Part shown: one piece after another, positions 3,399-13,244 of the stretch
How the letters are laid out: every line of letters begins with the position of its first letter
How positions within the stretch are numbered: the stretch's first letter is position 1
NCBI GenBank assembly: GCA_017629455.1
Contig: JAGBXE010000130.1
Location: 1 to 17,210, forward strand
Source: Kiritimatiellia bacterium
GTDB lineage: Bacteria > Verrucomicrobiota > Kiritimatiellia > RFP12 > UBA1067
Direction of reading: 5' to 3'
Length of the DNA: 17,210 nt
Notes under the pieces: model-generated
What the model was told of the DNA's origin: nothing
The model's database searches: none
Seen by the model: the letters and a program-made list of their open reading frames with translations, nothing else
Translations under genes and position numbers: made by a program

Positions 3399-5294
3399 AT
3401 GAAAATGCGTATCGCCGCTACTCTTGCTTGCTGCATCGCCTTTGCTTGTGGCGTAGAGGCAACAGGGAAAACTCTTGTCGAAACGTCACAGGCGCTCTCC
3501 TGGAATCACTTCGGCCGCATACTCCCCTACAGGCTTCGCCTCCCTGCGCAAATGAAAAGCGGAATAAAATATCCTCTCGTCGTGCACCTCCACGGCGCAG
3601 GATCGCGCGGCACAAATAACGTTGCGCAACTTAAAGTAGGGCCTAAGCAAGTTGATGACTGGGCGCGCAGAAACGGCGTAGAATATATCCTTATTGCCCC
3701 CCAATGTCCCGCAGGGCAAAAATGGGTCGATACGCCTTGGGGCGACACTTCACACAGAATGGCCAAGCACCCCAACCAGAATCTCTCCGCAGCGCTTGCG
3801 ATAATTGAAGATACCATTTGGCGCTATCCAGTCGATCCTGCTAGAGTCTACATTATCGGCATCTCTATGGGCGGATATGCAACGTGGGAAGTTCTTCAGC
3901 GCAGAAGCGAATGGTTTGCAGCTGCCATCCCCATGTGCGGCGGCGGCGATGACACACTTGTCGACAGAATGAAAGACGTTTCGATATGGGCGTTCCATGG
4001 ATCTGCCGACACGGTAGTTCCAGTGTGTAGATCACGCCAAATGGTCACAGCCCTGTGGAACATCTCTGGGCGCATACGCTATCGTGAATACCCTGGCGTT
4101 GAACACAATTGCTGGACTCCTACGCTTTCAGACGACACTGTCCTTAAGTGGCTTTTCGATCAGCGCAAGAATATGCCTCCCACCCCGAAGAACGTTCCCG
4201 AGCTGATGAAGACGTTCGACGGGCGCAAGGTCGCTACTAAGGCCGATTGGGAAAACATTCGCAGAGGCGAACTTTTAGAATGTTTTAAGAAAAACGTTTT
4301 CGGCCGCAGGCCACAAGCTGCCGCAAAACCTGAGGACATCAAATTCGTCTGCTTTGAAGAATCTCCCGCAATGGATGGCAAAGCAACGCTCAAGCGTATC
4401 CGCGCAGAGTTTTCTGGGCCTTGCGGCAAAGGATCATTCCCCTTTGTGGTGTTTATCCCTAAATCATCTAAGCCGGTAGGAACGTTTGTGTTAATTTGTA
4501 ACAGATCTGCTGGAAACATCGACGCTACTAGAAAAGAGAAAAAAGGCTTTTGGCCGGCTGAAGAAATTATTGCTCGCGGTTACGCAACAATTGCCTTCCT
4601 CACGACAGATTTGGCGGCCGACAAAGCAGCAGGCTTTTCACAAGGTATCTTTCCTGTGTTCCAGAAAGAATCTGAACGCGACGGCGAATCGTGGGCGACG
4701 ATCTCGGCTTGGGCGTGGGGCGCAAGCAGGATTATGGACTGGATTGAAACGGAAAAAGCCCTTGATCCAACCCGCGTAGCTGTAGTAGGCCACAGCCGCG
4801 GCGGAAAAACAGCCCTTTGGACTGGAGCTACCGACAAACGCTTTGCTCTTGCCTGCTCAAACGATTCGGGCTGCTCTGGCGCAAAACTCAACCATATCGA
4901 TCTTCCTGCGTCAGAACACATTGCGCAGATTACAAAGCACTTCCACTACTGGTTCTGCACGAACTATCTCTCCTGCGTAGGGCGCGATGATAAGCTCGAC
5001 TTTGACCAGCATGAACTCGTTGCGCTAATGGCTCCGCGCCTTGTGGCGATTGCATCAGCAACTGAAGATGCATGGGCCGGGCCCTGCGGAGAATGGTGGA
5101 GCGCGCGCCTCGCTTCGCCTGCATGGGAAGTTTATGGACTTCGCGGGCTTGTTGGCGACACTTGGCCAAAAGCAGAATGCCCTCAACAGGGCGGATCAAT
5201 TTCCTATCATATGAGGACTGGTCCTCACGCGCTTACTCCATACGACTGGAAGTGCTACATGGATTTCGCAGACCTCAACGGTTGGAGACGCTAG
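3399..5294 (+). CDS. Secreted two-domain carbohydrate esterase: CE1-like esterase plus CE15 glucuronoyl esterase
   Basis: The 631-residue protein begins with a likely Sec signal peptide (basic MKMR, hydrophobic core about 5-18, possible cleavage after VEA at 19-21). Domain 1 (about 30-258) resembles the CE1/PHB-depolymerase esterases: GISMG with Ser156, GSAD with Asp204 and His236 form a plausible triad. Domain 2 (about 275-631) resembles bacterial CE15: GHSRGGK with Ser466, SNDSGCSGA at 487-495, FHYWFCTNY, ATEDAW at 554-559 and catalytic His610 in TGPHALTPYDW. CE15 enzymes cut esters between lignin and glucuronic acid on xylan; CE1-type enzymes often remove feruloyl or acetyl groups. The catalytic acid in CE15 is uncertain (Asp489 or the Glu556/Asp557 loop). 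AAGAAAGG at 3385-3392 supports the start. Substrates are inferred from family only. Confidence 0.9.
   Translation: MKMRIAATLACCIAFACGVEATGKTLVETSQALSWNHFGRILPYRLRLPAQMKSGIKYPLVVHLHGAGSRGTNNVAQLKVGPKQVDDWARRNGVEYILIAPQCPAGQKWVDTPWGDTSHRMAKHPNQNLSAALAIIEDTIWRYPVDPARVYIIGISMGGYATWEVLQRRSEWFAAAIPMCGGGDDTLVDRMKDVSIWAFHGSADTVVPVCRSRQMVTALWNISGRIRYREYPGVEHNCWTPTLSDDTVLKWLFDQRKNMPPTPKNVPELMKTFDGRKVATKADWENIRRGELLECFKKNVFGRRPQAAAKPEDIKFVCFEESPAMDGKATLKRIRAEFSGPCGKGSFPFVVFIPKSSKPVGTFVLICNRSAGNIDATRKEKKGFWPAEEIIARGYATIAFLTTDLAADKAAGFSQGIFPVFQKESERDGESWATISAWAWGASRIMDWIETEKALDPTRVAVVGHSRGGKTALWTGATDKRFALACSNDSGCSGAKLNHIDLPASEHIAQITKHFHYWFCTNYLSCVGRDDKLDFDQHELVALMAPRLVAIASATEDAWAGPCGEWWSARLASPAWEVYGLRGLVGDTWPKAECPQQGGSISYHMRTGPHALTPYDWKCYMDFADLNGWRR
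5284..5287 (+). promoter_or_regulatory. Shine-Dalgarno site for the TTG start of nadD
   Basis: GGAG within the last codons of the esterase gene lies 8 bases before TTG at 5296. Because TTG is a rare start and the previous stop codon ends only one base earlier, this site is the main support for initiation here. Confidence 0.6.
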
Positions 5295-5295
5295 T

Positions 5296-5934
5296 TTGAG
5301 AATCGGCATATTCGGGGGGTCATTCGATCCCGTCCATTTAGGGCACATCGGCATAGCCCGCGCGGCAATTGCCGATTTGGCTCTTGATAAGCTCATCATC
5401 GTTCCAGCATCTGTTTCGCCTTTCAAGACCAACGCTGCACCTAAAGAAGGTTTGTGGCAACGGCTAGAACTTGTAAAGGCAGCTTTTGCGCCAGTCGAGC
5501 GAACTGTAGTAGACTTGCGCGAGATAGAGCGTGGCGGCGTTTCGTATGCGATTGATACTGTAAGCGAAATAGTTTCCGAAGGCGGCAGAGAAGATGAATA
5601 CTTCTTTATCGTAGGCGAAGATGCGGCCGTTGGCCTTGCGAAATGGAAAGACATCGACAAGCTAAAGAAACTTTGCACTTTCAAGGTATACCCACGCACG
5701 AAAGAATCGTCGTCAAGGATACGCGAATTATTTAAGCAAAGTAAATCTACGCTCAACCCAGATGAGAAAATAGTTTCCGCCGTGCGCGCGGGCCTCGTTA
5801 AACGCAACGGTTACTGCCCCTGCAGGCTTGCAAAATTGCCCGAGTTTTTCTGTCCTTGCGAAGAATTTATGGCGCAAATGGCCGACCCTTCATTTAGCGG
5901 AATGTGCCACTGCCGCCTCTACCTCAAACCTTAA
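5296..5934 (+). CDS. nadD: Nicotinate-nucleotide adenylyltransferase fused to a ferredoxin-thioredoxin-reductase-like iron-sulfur domain
   Basis: NadD joins NaMN and ATP to give deamido-NAD, the penultimate step of NAD synthesis. The nucleotidyltransferase part has the N-terminal GIFGGSFDPVHLGH motif (residues 4-17), FIVGEDA at 104-110, KWKDIDKL, and SSSRIRE at 138-144 in place of the usual ISSTxIR. The segment before that motif is much shorter than in typical NadD. The frame then continues into a module beginning near NPDEKIV (154-160) with CPC at 174-176, CPC at 186-188 and CHC at 204-206. These six cysteines match the set that holds the 4Fe-4S cluster and the redox disulfide in the ferredoxin-thioredoxin reductase catalytic subunit. 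The total span of 33 residues matches the plant/cyanobacterial motif as I recall it, with the middle CPC shifted. Start is TTG, one base after the esterase stop. The fusion is seen directly; a redox role is inferred. Confidence 0.93.
   Translation: MRIGIFGGSFDPVHLGHIGIARAAIADLALDKLIIVPASVSPFKTNAAPKEGLWQRLELVKAAFAPVERTVVDLREIERGGVSYAIDTVSEIVSEGGREDEYFFIVGEDAAVGLAKWKDIDKLKKLCTFKVYPRTKESSSRIRELFKQSKSTLNPDEKIVSAVRAGLVKRNGYCPCRLAKLPEFFCPCEEFMAQMADPSFSGMCHCRLYLKP
5755..5934 (+). other. FTR-catalytic-like six-cysteine domain within nadD
   Basis: This segment encodes residues 154-212. Its pattern is CPC-x9-CPC-x15-CHC, preceded by a predicted helix (EKIVSAVRAGLVKRNGY) and followed by RLYLKP. In ferredoxin-thioredoxin reductase, four cysteines bind a 4Fe-4S cluster and the second and last form the active-site disulfide, which here would be Cys176 and Cys206. 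Small stand-alone FTR-like proteins of anaerobes, as I recall them, share the NPDE...GYCPC...CHCGLY layout. No in-frame ATG lies before the CPC motif, so separate translation of this part is unlikely. Confidence 0.85.
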
Positions 5935-7877: not shown

Positions 7878-9815
7878 ATGAAAATTATTGGAGAAAAGCT
7901 CTTCGCGCGCGATGCGCAAGGGCGGCTTGTAAGCCGCATCGGAACGATGTTTTTCCGCACGCCGGGTCTCGTTACGCGGCAAGGTGCGCACGTGATGCAA
8001 CGTCTTCTTTGGCTAGAGACGCTCTCAAAAGAACGCAAGCTAACGCCTGCCGAAAGTGATGCCGAGTTGGCAGAGTCGGTCGATTTAGTTTTCACCGACG
8101 ACCATATTCTCATCCGCCCAAATCCCGACAGAATGGATTTGGCATTTAAGGCAGATGAAGAGCTGCAGAAGATGGTGTCCAAACGAGTAATCAGGTTCTT
8201 AAACACTGATTCCGCAAAAGTCCGCCGCGCATTGCGCGAACGCGGCGAAAATTGGCGCATGGCAAGGCATCCCATATCGCAAGAAGATATGGCAATGCTC
8301 ATTACCTCATCGCGTACCGCCATTGAGAATCGGCCAATTTATTACTACAACCATGCAACTGGAACGCGCTTTATAACGCCTGGCTCTTACGCTGAAATCG
8401 AGAGTTTGCCAGCCGATGAGTTCCGCCGCCATATCCTTGAAATCACTAAAGGCATGAACGCGCGCAACAGGCTTGGACGGCCTGAAATCGATATTTTCCC
8501 GACGACAACTCCGATAGATGTGCGCCGCGCCTTTAGAGAGCTTGCCGTCAACAATCTTGATGACGCAGCACTCAAAACGGCATGCTCTTCGATTGCGCGC
8601 GCTTGGAGGATGTCGATACCTGCGGAGCTTCGCGAAGAAGCTAATACGAACTTCGATTGGCGCAACGAAATGTGCCACACTCTCACACGCGGTCCTAACG
8701 ACACCGCCGCCGAAGAACAAGAATTAGTAGCCGGCATCGCCCCCGAATTTTATAGGCAGATTGAATGGCTGCCCGGTGCGCGCATCGATCGCGGCGAAGT
8801 TATTTTTGACACTCTTTACGAAGAAGCGGCAAGAACTTCCGATCCCGAGCTTACCGCCATTTGCGACACGCGGGTAAAAAGCTTCCTCTTCAACACAACG
8901 CGCCTTTTTGGCTCGCTCGACTACATCAATATCGGGCGCATAGCCAAATCGCTTGCGCGCCACCCTGTCGAAGGAAATAGGCGCGGTTATGTGTACATTC
9001 TTCAATACCGCGAAACAGGTAAAAGCGAAGTTCAAGTTTGCATGATCCGCCTGCAGAAGTGGGGCATTGCCGAACGCCTCGATGAAGGTAAGGATTTGCT
9101 GACGGCAATAATCGAAACTGACGAGTATTCCGACTACATTCTTGATAGGCGTCTTATGTGTAAGCAATTGGGCATGAATCTTCCGCAGAAGATTGGTCAT
9201 GGCCACTTCACAGAGCGCTATCAGGGTGAGAACAAGTATAAAGGGTTTGCTATACGCACTGCGTATTTCGTGCGCTCTTATATCCACGGTATCGCTTCCG
9301 ACAAAGTGCCGCCAGTGAAATTCCACAATCCTGCTTTTGCCGCTAAGTTCGCTGAACTTATGGGCGAAGCGGCCGCCCTCGATATGATCGTGGGGCGCCG
9401 TAGCACGATAACTAACAGCCCCCTTTTCGACCAAAACTACGAAGTCGTACGCATCGGCGAAGATGGCTTGCCAGCAGAGATCATGTTAACCGACCACGCT
9501 GGCAGCTTTACCGACTACGAGCGTCCATACGAAGAATACGTTGACATCTACGCATCAGCCGTCTTAAGGCGCCTTTCATTCGTCAACGACAAGTCAACCT
9601 TTGTATCTTCCTATGTTGAAGGCTTCAAGCGCAAGCTGGAAGACACGCAAAACGCCTACCGCGCAAGGCGCAAGGCGTTCGACAACCTTTTCATTGATAG
9701 GCCTTACGATACAAACGGGTCTGGTGCTTACCGCTGGGCTTGCGCACTCCGCCGCCTCGACGACTGCAACCCTGCCAACGTAGCACAGGAATTGAAAAAG
9801 GCGATAGGATGCTAA
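7878..9815 (+). CDS. Unrecognised 645-residue protein
   Basis: I do not recognise this protein. The codon pattern and length leave little doubt it is real. It has no signal peptide and no clear membrane segment, so it is probably cytoplasmic. It is rich in charged residues, with many Arg-Arg pairs. The C-terminal half contains motif-like stretches: QVCMIRLQKWGIAERLD about 386-402, YILDRRL 420-426, GHGHFTERYQG 440-450, LDMIVGRRSTITN 501-513 and EIMLTDHAGSF 534-544. The last two faintly recall the catalytic-loop Asn and metal-binding Asp of HipA/PI3-kinase-like folds. However, the usual catalytic Asp five residues before that Asn is Arg508, so I do not assign kinase activity. The ATG sits 7 bases after a TATAAT box with no SD sequence. 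The next gene overlaps its end by 7 bases, tying it to a permease. Confidence 0.85.
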   Translation: MKIIGEKLFARDAQGRLVSRIGTMFFRTPGLVTRQGAHVMQRLLWLETLSKERKLTPAESDAELAESVDLVFTDDHILIRPNPDRMDLAFKADEELQKMVSKRVIRFLNTDSAKVRRALRERGENWRMARHPISQEDMAMLITSSRTAIENRPIYYYNHATGTRFITPGSYAEIESLPADEFRRHILEITKGMNARNRLGRPEIDIFPTTTPIDVRRAFRELAVNNLDDAALKTACSSIARAWRMSIPAELREEANTNFDWRNEMCHTLTRGPNDTAAEEQELVAGIAPEFYRQIEWLPGARIDRGEVIFDTLYEEAARTSDPELTAICDTRVKSFLFNTTRLFGSLDYINIGRIAKSLARHPVEGNRRGYVYILQYRETGKSEVQVCMIRLQKWGIAERLDEGKDLLTAIIETDEYSDYILDRRLMCKQLGMNLPQKIGHGHFTERYQGENKYKGFAIRTAYFVRSYIHGIASDKVPPVKFHNPAFAAKFAELMGEAAALDMIVGRRSTITNSPLFDQNYEVVRIGEDGLPAEIMLTDHAGSFTDYERPYEEYVDIYASAVLRRLSFVNDKSTFVSSYVEGFKRKLEDTQNAYRARRKAFDNLFIDRPYDTNGSGAYRWACALRRLDDCNPANVAQELKKAIGC

Positions 9816-10767: not shown

Positions 10768-12336
10768 ATGGCGGGCGCAAGAGACTTTCCTGTCGAGGAG
10801 AAAATCCCCGAAATTAAAAACGCTCTTGCGGCAAATCGATCAGTAGTTCTTACAGCACCGCCTGGAAGCGGCAAAACAACGTGTGTTCCAGCCGCGCTTC
10901 TTAACGAGCCTTGGTTAAATGGTAAACGCATTATCATGCTTGAACCGCGCAGGCTTGCGGCTAGAGCTTGTGCATCATGGATCGCCGCTAAGCTTGGCGA
11001 AGAAGTTGGTGGCACTATCGGCTGCCACGTGCGTCTTGAACGCCGCGCATCTTCACGCACACGCCTTGAGATCGTTACAGAGGGAATTCTTTCACAACGC
11101 CTCTTATCAGACCCTGAGCTTAATGATGTAGGCTTAATTATTTTCGATGAATTTCATGAGCGCTCGCTACAGTGCGATCTTTCCTTTGCACTCGCACTTG
11201 AGGTACGAAAGGCGTTGCGCGATGATATGCGCATTATGGTTATGTCGGCTACGCTTGAAGCTGCAAGCGTAGCCGACCATCGAGGTGATGCGCAATCAAT
11301 TCACGCCCAAGGGCGTATGTATCCTGTTGAGACTAAATATCTTGGAAACGTAAGCATCCCTGCGGCAGTTTCTGTTGCTCTTGAAGAAACTGACGGCGAT
11401 ATACTTTGTTTCTTACCAGGTGAACGAGAAATTCGCCGCGCCCTTGAATCTCTCGAAGGCAAAGGCGATTATGAGGTCCTACCACTTTACGGCTCACTTC
11501 CCAAATCTGAACAAGATAGAATCTTTAAAAGAAGTTCTCGCAGGCGCATTGTTCTAGCAACATCGATAGCCGAAACATCTCTTACCGTCGGCGGCATAAC
11601 GGCAGTAATTGATAGCGGCCTTATGCGAGTGCCGCGCTTCTCGCCGTCAACCGGCATGACTGGGCTTGTCACGCTGCCGCTTTCCTCCGACCGCGCCGAA
11701 CAACGCCGCGGACGAGCTGGGCGCGTAGGCCCAGGCGTATGCTACCGCCTGTGGACGCAAGCCGACGAAGCTTCACGCCCTGCGCATTCCGAGCCTGAAA
11801 TCCTTTCAGCCGACATTACCTCTCTCGTTCTTGCTAGCGCAGCATGGGGCGCTGCACGCCGCACAGATTTACCTTGGATGACAGAACCTCCATCATCTCA
11901 ATGGGAGAGTGCTTCATCACTTTTGCGCCTTATGGGCGCTCTTGACGAACGCGGCCTTACGACTGAAAAAGGTGCCCTTATGGCACGCCTTCCAATGCAT
12001 CCACGGCTAGCGAATATGCTTCTTGCCGCGTCGACTTCTATGTGCGGTCTTTCACGCAGCCCTAGAGAAACAGCGGCAATACTTGCAGCAATTATAGAAG
12101 AAGATTCTGCGCGGAGAGAAAGCGACATTCGTCTAGCTTTAGATGAAATCATTCAAACCCCTCAGCGGCCTCAATCAAAGCGGATATTGCTTCTTGCAAA
12201 TCGCTTTGTATCCTCTTGCCGTACTCAGAATTACGAAAACAATTCTTCTTCTGCTTCTCTTACTGAAGGCGCCCTTCTTGCTTACGCATACCCCGATAGA
12301 ATAGCGAAAAGCGCAGCGAAGGTTCCTTTAGAATGA
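10768..12336 (+). CDS. hrpB: ATP-dependent RNA helicase HrpB, N-terminal (helicase) part
   Basis: HrpB is a DExH-box helicase of the DEAH/RHA group whose cellular role is poorly defined. This 522-residue frame carries the whole motor: Walker A PPGSGKTT at 31-38, DEFH at 127-130, SAT at 160-162, an ATSIAETSLTV segment at 264-274 and motif VI QRRGRAGR at 312-319. The ratchet-like region reaches AYAYPDRIAKS at 505-515. It then ends at TGA, where HrpB proteins normally continue for about 300 more residues; that remainder is the next frame, overlapping by ATGA. N-terminal and C-terminal frames sum to 825 residues, close to the roughly 810 of E. coli HrpB, so nothing is missing. The start ATG lies 8 bases after the permease stop and has no SD sequence. 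Confidence 0.94.
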   Translation: MAGARDFPVEEKIPEIKNALAANRSVVLTAPPGSGKTTCVPAALLNEPWLNGKRIIMLEPRRLAARACASWIAAKLGEEVGGTIGCHVRLERRASSRTRLEIVTEGILSQRLLSDPELNDVGLIIFDEFHERSLQCDLSFALALEVRKALRDDMRIMVMSATLEAASVADHRGDAQSIHAQGRMYPVETKYLGNVSIPAAVSVALEETDGDILCFLPGEREIRRALESLEGKGDYEVLPLYGSLPKSEQDRIFKRSSRRRIVLATSIAETSLTVGGITAVIDSGLMRVPRFSPSTGMTGLVTLPLSSDRAEQRRGRAGRVGPGVCYRLWTQADEASRPAHSEPEILSADITSLVLASAAWGAARRTDLPWMTEPPSSQWESASSLLRLMGALDERGLTTEKGALMARLPMHPRLANMLLAASTSMCGLSRSPRETAAILAAIIEEDSARRESDIRLALDEIIQTPQRPQSKRILLLANRFVSSCRTQNYENNSSSASLTEGALLAYAYPDRIAKSAAKVPLE

Positions 12337-13244
12337 CATCAGGAAAAGGAGCTTTCGTAGATCAATTTGATCCTCTTGCCAAATGCGAATATATTGTTTG
12401 TTGCAAACTTGACGATCGAATTGGCGATGCCCGCGTATTTCTCGGTTGCCCCATTTCTCCGCACGAAGTTGAAGATATTTTCTCCTCTAGTATTAGCGAA
12501 GAAAAAATTTGCCAATGGGATAAAATTAATGAACGCGTCAAATGTGTTACTGCTCGGCGCTTAGGGCAATTGACGATTTCAGAGAAACCTTATAGCGGCA
12601 TTGATGATGACGCCAATATATCCCAAAAAATAGCCGAAGCGATGGTCGAGGGCGTAAAACAAAAAGGCGTTGCGAACATGCCCTGTTGGACTAAACACGC
12701 ACTTGAATTACGCGCGCGAGTTAACTTTATTTCGCGTGTAACTATCGCTACAGCGAATCCCTGGCCAGAAGCATCCGATGAAGCAATTCTTGAAGTGTTG
12801 CCGTCGTTTATCATCGCAATGACGAAATGGAAAGACTTTGAGCGCCTAGATATGTGCAATCTTATAGGGGCTATTATTGCCGCCTCTGGCCACAGCATGC
12901 ACGAGCTCGACATTCTTGCACCAGGGCGCTTGGAAATGCCGTCAGGTTCAAAGATCACTGTAAATTACGATGGCTCAGAGCCGACTGTTGAAGTTCGCCT
13001 TCAAGAATGTTTTGGGCTAATGGCATCTCCGAAAATCGCAGGCGGCGAAGTTCCTGTCGTTATGACGCTTCTCTCACCTGCTTTTAGGCCTATTCAAATT
13101 ACAAAAGACCTTTCTGGTTTTTGGAGCGGAGCATATCAACTTGTGCGCAAGGATATGCGAGGAAGATACCCTAAACACTACTGGCCTGAAGACCCATTTA
13201 CGGCAGTAGCTACACGCCGTACGCACGGCATCGCCAACAAATAG
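12333..13244 (+). CDS. hrpB: HrpB C-terminal part, separate frame
   Basis: This 303-residue frame is the C-terminal portion of HrpB. It opens with MTSGKGAFV, matching the usual SGRGA segment that follows PDRIA in intact HrpB. It also contains LAPGRLEMPSGSKI, VRLQECFGLMASP, and the signature end RGRYPKHYWPEDPFTAVATRRT. A single -1 step near 12330 would join it to the helicase frame as ...VPL-RMTSGKGAFV without loss of residues. Three readings are possible: a true gene split into two translationally coupled proteins (the ATGA overlap is typical), a frameshift mutation, or a sequencing or assembly error. The intact reading of both parts argues against old decay. The gene ends two bases from the stop codon of the converging atpI. 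Confidence 0.92.
   Translation: MTSGKGAFVDQFDPLAKCEYIVCCKLDDRIGDARVFLGCPISPHEVEDIFSSSISEEKICQWDKINERVKCVTARRLGQLTISEKPYSGIDDDANISQKIAEAMVEGVKQKGVANMPCWTKHALELRARVNFISRVTIATANPWPEASDEAILEVLPSFIIAMTKWKDFERLDMCNLIGAIIAASGHSMHELDILAPGRLEMPSGSKITVNYDGSEPTVEVRLQECFGLMASPKIAGGEVPVVMTLLSPAFRPIQITKDLSGFWSGAYQLVRKDMRGRYPKHYWPEDPFTAVATRRTHGIANK

Follow-up and report, generated by a model that had tools for sequence, protein, structure and literature searches.

A NadD enzyme fused to a probable ferredoxin-dependent thioredoxin reductase in Kiritimatiellia genomes that have mostly lost TrxB

We describe a gene in which nicotinate-nucleotide adenylyltransferase (NadD) continues in one open frame into an FTR/FDR-type catalytic module, located at positions 5296..5934 on the + strand of the window, i.e. 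the complete stretch of 17,210 nucleotides analysed here. We consider it probable, at roughly 0.7, that the product is a bifunctional protein combining the cell's sole NadD with a ferredoxin-dependent thioredoxin reductase that replaces TrxB. The loss of TrxB in genomes with the fusion, the exchange of ftr and trxB in the slot preceding trxA in relatives and the retention of thioredoxin lead us to infer that the tail is a thioredoxin reductase; judged from gene content and sequence, it is most likely the cell's own ferredoxin-dependent thioredoxin reductase, moved onto NadD.

Results

Domain composition of the fusion protein

The gene, supported by the open frame, by Pfam and by full-length database matches, has a TTG start at 5296 and a stop codon at 5932-5934 and encodes 212 amino acids. 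The stop of an esterase-like gene lies one base upstream and an acetolactate-synthase-like gene pair follows directly downstream. The N-terminal NadD domain comprises residues 1-144 (5296..5727, +) and is recognised by PF01467 (CTP_transf_like; residues 5-144, E 8.3e-17, 62.1 bits against a cut-off of 21) and, inside residues 1-150, by NCBIfam NadD models. TIGR00482 reaches 112.1 bits against its equivalog cut-off of 112.45 over profile positions 1-134 of 194, the C-terminal part of this profile having no counterpart in the short form of the fusion. The domain contains a GGSFDPVHLGH motif (residues 7-17; 5314..5346, +), presumably the nucleotide-binding motif of NadD, and an SSSRIR motif (residues 138-143; 5707..5724, +), which we take to play the role of the ISSTxIR-type motif in NadD. 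Alignment of 64 sequences including canonical NadDs shows G7, G8, F10, P12, H14, H17 and R143 to be invariant and S138 and S139 to be conserved in at least 90%, and structure comparison shows that the fold, like the catalytic motifs, matches NadD. No cysteine of the NadD half is conserved, with C127 present in 15 of 25 aligned sequences, which rules out that the tail serves as reductant of a conserved NadD disulfide.

The FTR/FDR-type catalytic module comprises residues 150-212 (5743..5931, +), its left edge being set by aligning stand-alone FTRs of 65 amino acids. PF02943 (FeThRed_B) matches residues 144-211 (E 2.2e-5, 24.9 bits against a cut-off of 22), this profile being weak for the present FTR branch and missing 7 of the 29 fused genomes described below at E<=0.01. 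The module alone has a confident predicted fold, and Foldseek matches it to two structures only, both ferredoxin:disulfide reductases (FDRs): 4tpu, which ranks first, and 7pwe. Its cysteines are arranged as C174-P-C176 (5815..5823, +), aligned with the CPC of the plant-type FTR 2pvd, and as C186-P-C188 (5851..5859, +) and C204-H205-C206 (5905..5913, +), both aligned with relatives and 2pvd. By analogy with FTR, we take C174, C186, C188 and C204 to be the putative cluster ligands and C176 and C206 to be the putative redox-disulfide pair. The six cysteines and H205 are invariant in 18/18 aligned relatives and likewise in 25/25 sequences of a second set, and CPC-CPC-CHC is present across the 29 fused loci. 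In the predicted model of the entire fusion, helices span residues 139-149 and 157-169, and the six best NadD structures align over 153-163 residues, extending beyond residue 170 of the model, consistent with an FTR helix taking the place of NadD's last helix.

The fusion recurs in related genomes

Database searches return 1666 proteins matching the window protein, the 120 matches listed all aligning over 100% of the query. Using residues 148-212 as query among proteins of fusion size yields 434 protein clusters of about 117-371 amino acids, and PF01467 is also found in all but one of the 120 clusters listed, the exception being the 118-residue P0124. Scanning genome contigs, we recovered 49 loci: the fusion is present in 29 (L001-L029), and the other 20 encode NadD without the tail. 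By the names in the sequence records, from which we inferred class and phylum labels, the 29 fused loci belong to Kiritimatiellae, Kiritimatiellia, Verrucomicrobia, Lentisphaerae or plain uncultured-bacterium MAGs, many of them from ruminant or horse gut. The full-length fusion is present in 23 of 288 genomes of the same class, and with up to ten candidates scored per genome it is the sole NadD match in these 23, with an additional fragment in G021. In a sample of 387 genomes from the phylum, no fusion was found outside the class, the five matches being class members already in the set.

None of the 29 fused loci has a stop codon between the NadD and FTR halves. Neither PF02943 nor a branch-specific FTR profile detects an FTR in the ten nearest unfused genomes, save for a 26-residue profile match in G036 (G036:C262:28894-28971, E 4.8e-4) within a frame of 93 amino acids, which is probably a chance match. 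We therefore reject a broken pair of neighbouring genes as the origin of the arrangement. The same searches found no separate FTR in the 29 fused genomes with one exception in G021, where the 3' part of the fusion is present a second time (L072; G021:C5:12058-12261). This partial copy comprises the NadD C-terminus and the FTR, is separated from the intact gene by about 9 kb and appears to be a duplicated fragment. That an assembly or frame error joined two genes has a negligible probability: we found no evidence in its favour, and it is refuted by the recurrence of the fusion, which appears in separate records at 29 loci and, among database proteins, on many contigs. The preliminary description of this DNA had read the gene as NadD running into an FTR-like module with CPC at 174-176 and 186-188, CHC at 204-206 and the complete FTR catalytic Cys/His set; the single frame with both Pfam domains over cut-off, the position and invariance of the motifs, the fold shared with 4tpu and 7pwe, the recurrence in relatives and the uninterrupted frames, with no separate FTR gene in the nearest unfused genomes, all bear out this reading.

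The gene neighbours of the fusion vary. By our naming from reading, proC before nadD is common to some fused and unfused loci, suggesting an orthologous site and having no bearing on function.

Short and long forms of the fusion

Reading of the sequences distinguishes two forms. In the short form, comprising 22 of the 29 loci and the window, the FTR sequence follows almost immediately after the SSxxIR helix, and the window's NadD half lacks both the stretch preceding the SSxxIR motif and NadD's last helix. In the long form (7/29 loci: L018, L021, L022, L025-L028; 226-233 amino acids), the C-terminal NadD sequence ...LVPxAVALFIKHGV... is complete and is then followed by the FTR. Loss of the stretch before SSxxIR, which canonical NadDs possess, probably predates the fusion, as judged from the alignment, because the NadDs of the unfused relatives L030-L039 (167-183 amino acids) lack it as well.

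In a NadD tree of 31 fused and 20 unfused rows, a supported clade of 24 rows unites the short forms (100/93) and a second unites six long forms (96/96), with L026 grouping with unfused rows (84/91). Fused NadDs are thus found in three places among unfused ones, a single fused clade not being rejected (AU p 0.314). In the FTR tree, which is built on few columns, 30 of 33 rows labelled stand-alone form one branch (98/97) separate from the fused modules; the rows on the fused side are the outgroup P0219, P0206 on a long branch and P0136, whose sequence marks it as a piece of a fusion, and monophyly of the fused modules is again not rejected (AU p 0.324). Stand-alone FTRs from the database share 40-61% identity with the window's FTR module. 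The 65-residue stand-alone branch P0137-P0202 derives, by source names, from Clostridia, Oscillospiraceae, Acutalibacteraceae, Anaerovibrio and Lentisphaeria MAGs, and among the rows listed its second motif is mostly CMC or CIC, not CPC.

Genomes with the FTR module mostly lack TrxB and retain thioredoxin

TrxB (TIGR01292) is a flavoprotein unrelated to FTR that uses NADPH. Scoring every candidate, we find it over the cut-off in 2/29 fused genomes (G006 and G026, in which the fusion occurs together with a full TrxB) versus 5/10 unfused relatives, and at E<=1e-30 in 2/29 versus 8/10 (Fisher p 2.9e-5, for genomes that are related and not phylogenetically independent). In G031 and G038, which are among these eight, the matches are half-length, spanning positions 2-168 of a 300-position profile within frames of some 290 amino acids, and possibly represent divergent thioredoxin reductases. 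With the FTR module as query, 33 of the 288 class genomes have an FTR, 23 as a fusion and 10 not in a fusion, the stand-alone match in G254 being weak (E 3.3e-10). In this survey, which scored up to seven TrxB candidates per genome, TrxB was not found at E<=1e-30 in 22/23 fused genomes, 7/10 stand-alone-FTR genomes and 31/255 genomes without FTR, so that it is missing in 29/33 FTR-bearing versus 31/255 FTR-less genomes (p 5e-19, again for related genomes); the three stand-alone-FTR genomes G252, G254 and G283 carry an FTR together with a TrxB-like match. Mapped onto the NadD tree, the association amounts to between one (supported branches) and three (all branches) independent pairs and is not significant.

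Thioredoxin is detected at E<=1e-8 in 31/31 fused, 10/10 stand-alone-FTR and 9/10 unfused genomes, and over the family cut-off in 26 of 51 genomes, 13 of them fused, showing that the missing TrxB is not just missing sequence. The window's own genome presumably resembles its relatives in TrxB and thioredoxin content. In 5 of the 10 stand-alone-FTR genomes (G229, G246, G286, G290, G292), the FTR of 65 amino acids immediately precedes trxA in the same orientation, both genes being confirmed by Pfam at two of these loci, while the other five do not adjoin trxA. In four of the eight unfused genomes with a TrxB match (G030, G032, G033, G035), trxB lies directly before trxA, one of these being confirmed as TrxB. 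The surroundings of trxA were read in 16 of the 31 fused genomes (including L094), and in all 16 no trxB was found beside it, considering ORFs of at least 90 amino acids and with some contigs ending nearby. The trxB and ftr genes occupy one slot before trxA in different relatives, and in the fused clade this slot is empty and the FTR resides on NadD. As the trxA-adjacent ftr genes fall into the separate branch, their function is carried over to the fused modules by homology.

Pyruvate:ferredoxin oxidoreductase is matched in 27/31 fused genomes, 13 times over the cut-off and in many others as contig-end pieces, suggesting that these genomes likely encode a source of reduced ferredoxin. The FTR variable chain (PF02941) was found in 0/41 genomes at E<=0.01, a control search detecting it in Synechococcus elongatus, and we therefore reject a canonical heterodimeric FTR of the plant/cyanobacterial type. 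On the side of NAD synthesis, NadA is present in 29/31 and NadE in 28/31 fused genomes; a NadD is needed for the usual route via NaMN and NaAD, and none other than the fusion was seen. As the sole NadD, with NadA and NadE usually present, the fusion probably has NaMN adenylyltransferase activity.

Discussion

These data support a model according to which the N-terminal domain, as the cell's only NadD, would convert NaMN and ATP to NaAD, and the C-terminal domain would act as a single-chain disulfide reductase of the FTR/FDR type. A [4Fe-4S] cluster held by C174, C186, C188 and C204 would receive electrons from ferredoxin and use them to open the C176-C206 disulfide, and the reduced pair would in turn reduce the cell's WCGPC thioredoxin, the FTR module thereby standing in for the NADPH-dependent TrxB mostly lost in this lineage.

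FTR and FDR domains, their fusions with redoxins and the occurrence of NadD in longer proteins are already known, whereas the NadD-FTR pairing, which has an unusual biological setting, did not turn up among the titles and abstract openings listed by searches of the open-licence literature. Methanosarcina acetivorans FDR (4tpu), the best PDB sequence match to the module (E 1.1e-6), likewise is a single-chain FTR-type domain with the same fold but has CYC as its last motif instead of CHC; its molecule is named rubredoxin in the PDB, from which its partner appears to be an electron carrier, whereas the partner in the fusion is a biosynthetic enzyme. In the Desulfotalea psychrophila glutaredoxin/FDR fusion (7pwe) the partner is a thiol redoxin and thereby a plausible substrate, in contrast to an adenylyltransferase. 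Plant and cyanobacterial FTRs (1dj7, 2pu9, 7bzk) share CPC-CPC-CHC and the fold with the module but are heterodimers with a variable chain and match its sequence weakly (E 0.06-0.08). According to PMC9025218, these enzymes pass ferredoxin electrons to thioredoxin, and absence of the variable chain is to be expected outside oxygenic phototrophs. The fusion tail would do the job of TrxB, whose gene sits in the slot ahead of trxA that ftr fills in other relatives. The NadD half shares its catalytic motifs and fold with bacterial NadD (PF01467, TIGR00482), which is known within other longer proteins, e.g. NF005519, a model of 361 positions whose second domain is presumably HD.

The preliminary description had proposed that NAD production could be switched by the redox state. 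On this view, the tail would sense the ferredoxin/thiol state with its cluster or its disulfide and would raise or lower NadD activity via the SSxxIR helix leading into the FTR helix. The arrangement in the 22 of 29 fused loci without NadD's last helix, where the FTR helix comes close behind the SSxxIR helix, is compatible with such coupling, as are the two helices of the model and the NadD structure alignments continuing past residue 170. Against this, the NadD half lacks a conserved cysteine, 7/29 fusions keep NadD's own last helix and nothing in the genomes or sequences points to NadD control, so that we regard a redox switch as unlikely. The conserved fusion, its complete cysteine set and its fold thus stand from the preliminary description, while switching of NAD production does not, the genomes pointing to thioredoxin reduction in place of TrxB. 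That the FTR module merely stabilises a shortened NadD as a structural relic without redox turnover fits its position behind the site of the lost C-terminal helix in the short forms; we consider this very improbable, as C176 and C206, non-ligands by analogy, are invariant in both alignment sets and the long forms carry the module without needing it.

Within the same chemistry, the tail might be an FDR for a disulfide other than that of general thioredoxin, such as an NrdH-like redoxin, ribonucleotide reductase or NadA. According to PMC6262447, the thioredoxin reduced by the characterised archaeal FDR is atypical and not of the canonical kind, and a title cited there has FDR feeding class III ribonucleotide reductase; 7pwe in addition combines FDR with glutaredoxin. 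The stand-alone kin of the module adjoin canonical trxA, however, and TrxB is lost, making a different substrate as doubtful as the redox switch. Reduction of general thioredoxin by the fused module remains the reading we prefer. As candidate reasons for an FTR on NadD we see redox gating, a role for NadD in shielding the cluster as a substitute for the variable chain, or mere co-expression, none of which we favour. A more far-reaching version, in which the sole, ferredoxin-fed thioredoxin reductase is built into the NAD-supply enzyme and the state of its cluster or disulfide gates NadD via the SSxxIR and FTR helices, so that NAD synthesis would track the ferredoxin/thiol state, seems to us rather unlikely, if marginally less so than the switch as such.

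If the proposed role holds true, a bacterial lineage now runs its central thiol-reducing enzyme on ferredoxin instead of NADPH and has physically tied it to NAD synthesis, bringing together two systems that are usually studied separately. Annotation would then be corrected for genomes most of which otherwise appear to have thioredoxin without a reductase. A natural comparison is offered by relatives that carry trxB-trxA, ftr-trxA, or nadD-ftr with trxA at a separate site.

Some further observations concern other genes. The distant FTR-like gene of 72 amino acids in G254 (L092) has neighbours resembling, on visual inspection, a serine recombinase, a dUTPase and parts of an anaerobic ribonucleotide reductase, perhaps representing a mobile element using FTR for a class III reductase. 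In the window, positions 3399-5294, just before the fusion gene, encode one protein with two alpha/beta-hydrolase-like halves, the second matching the fungal glucuronyl esterase family PF22244, and positions 7878-9815 hold an ORF of 645 amino acids without a Pfam match at 1e-5. An HrpB helicase is encoded by two overlapping genes at 10768-12336 and 12333-13244, the first corresponding to positions 1-521 and the second to positions 529-821 of TIGR01970, reflecting either a real split or a frame error.
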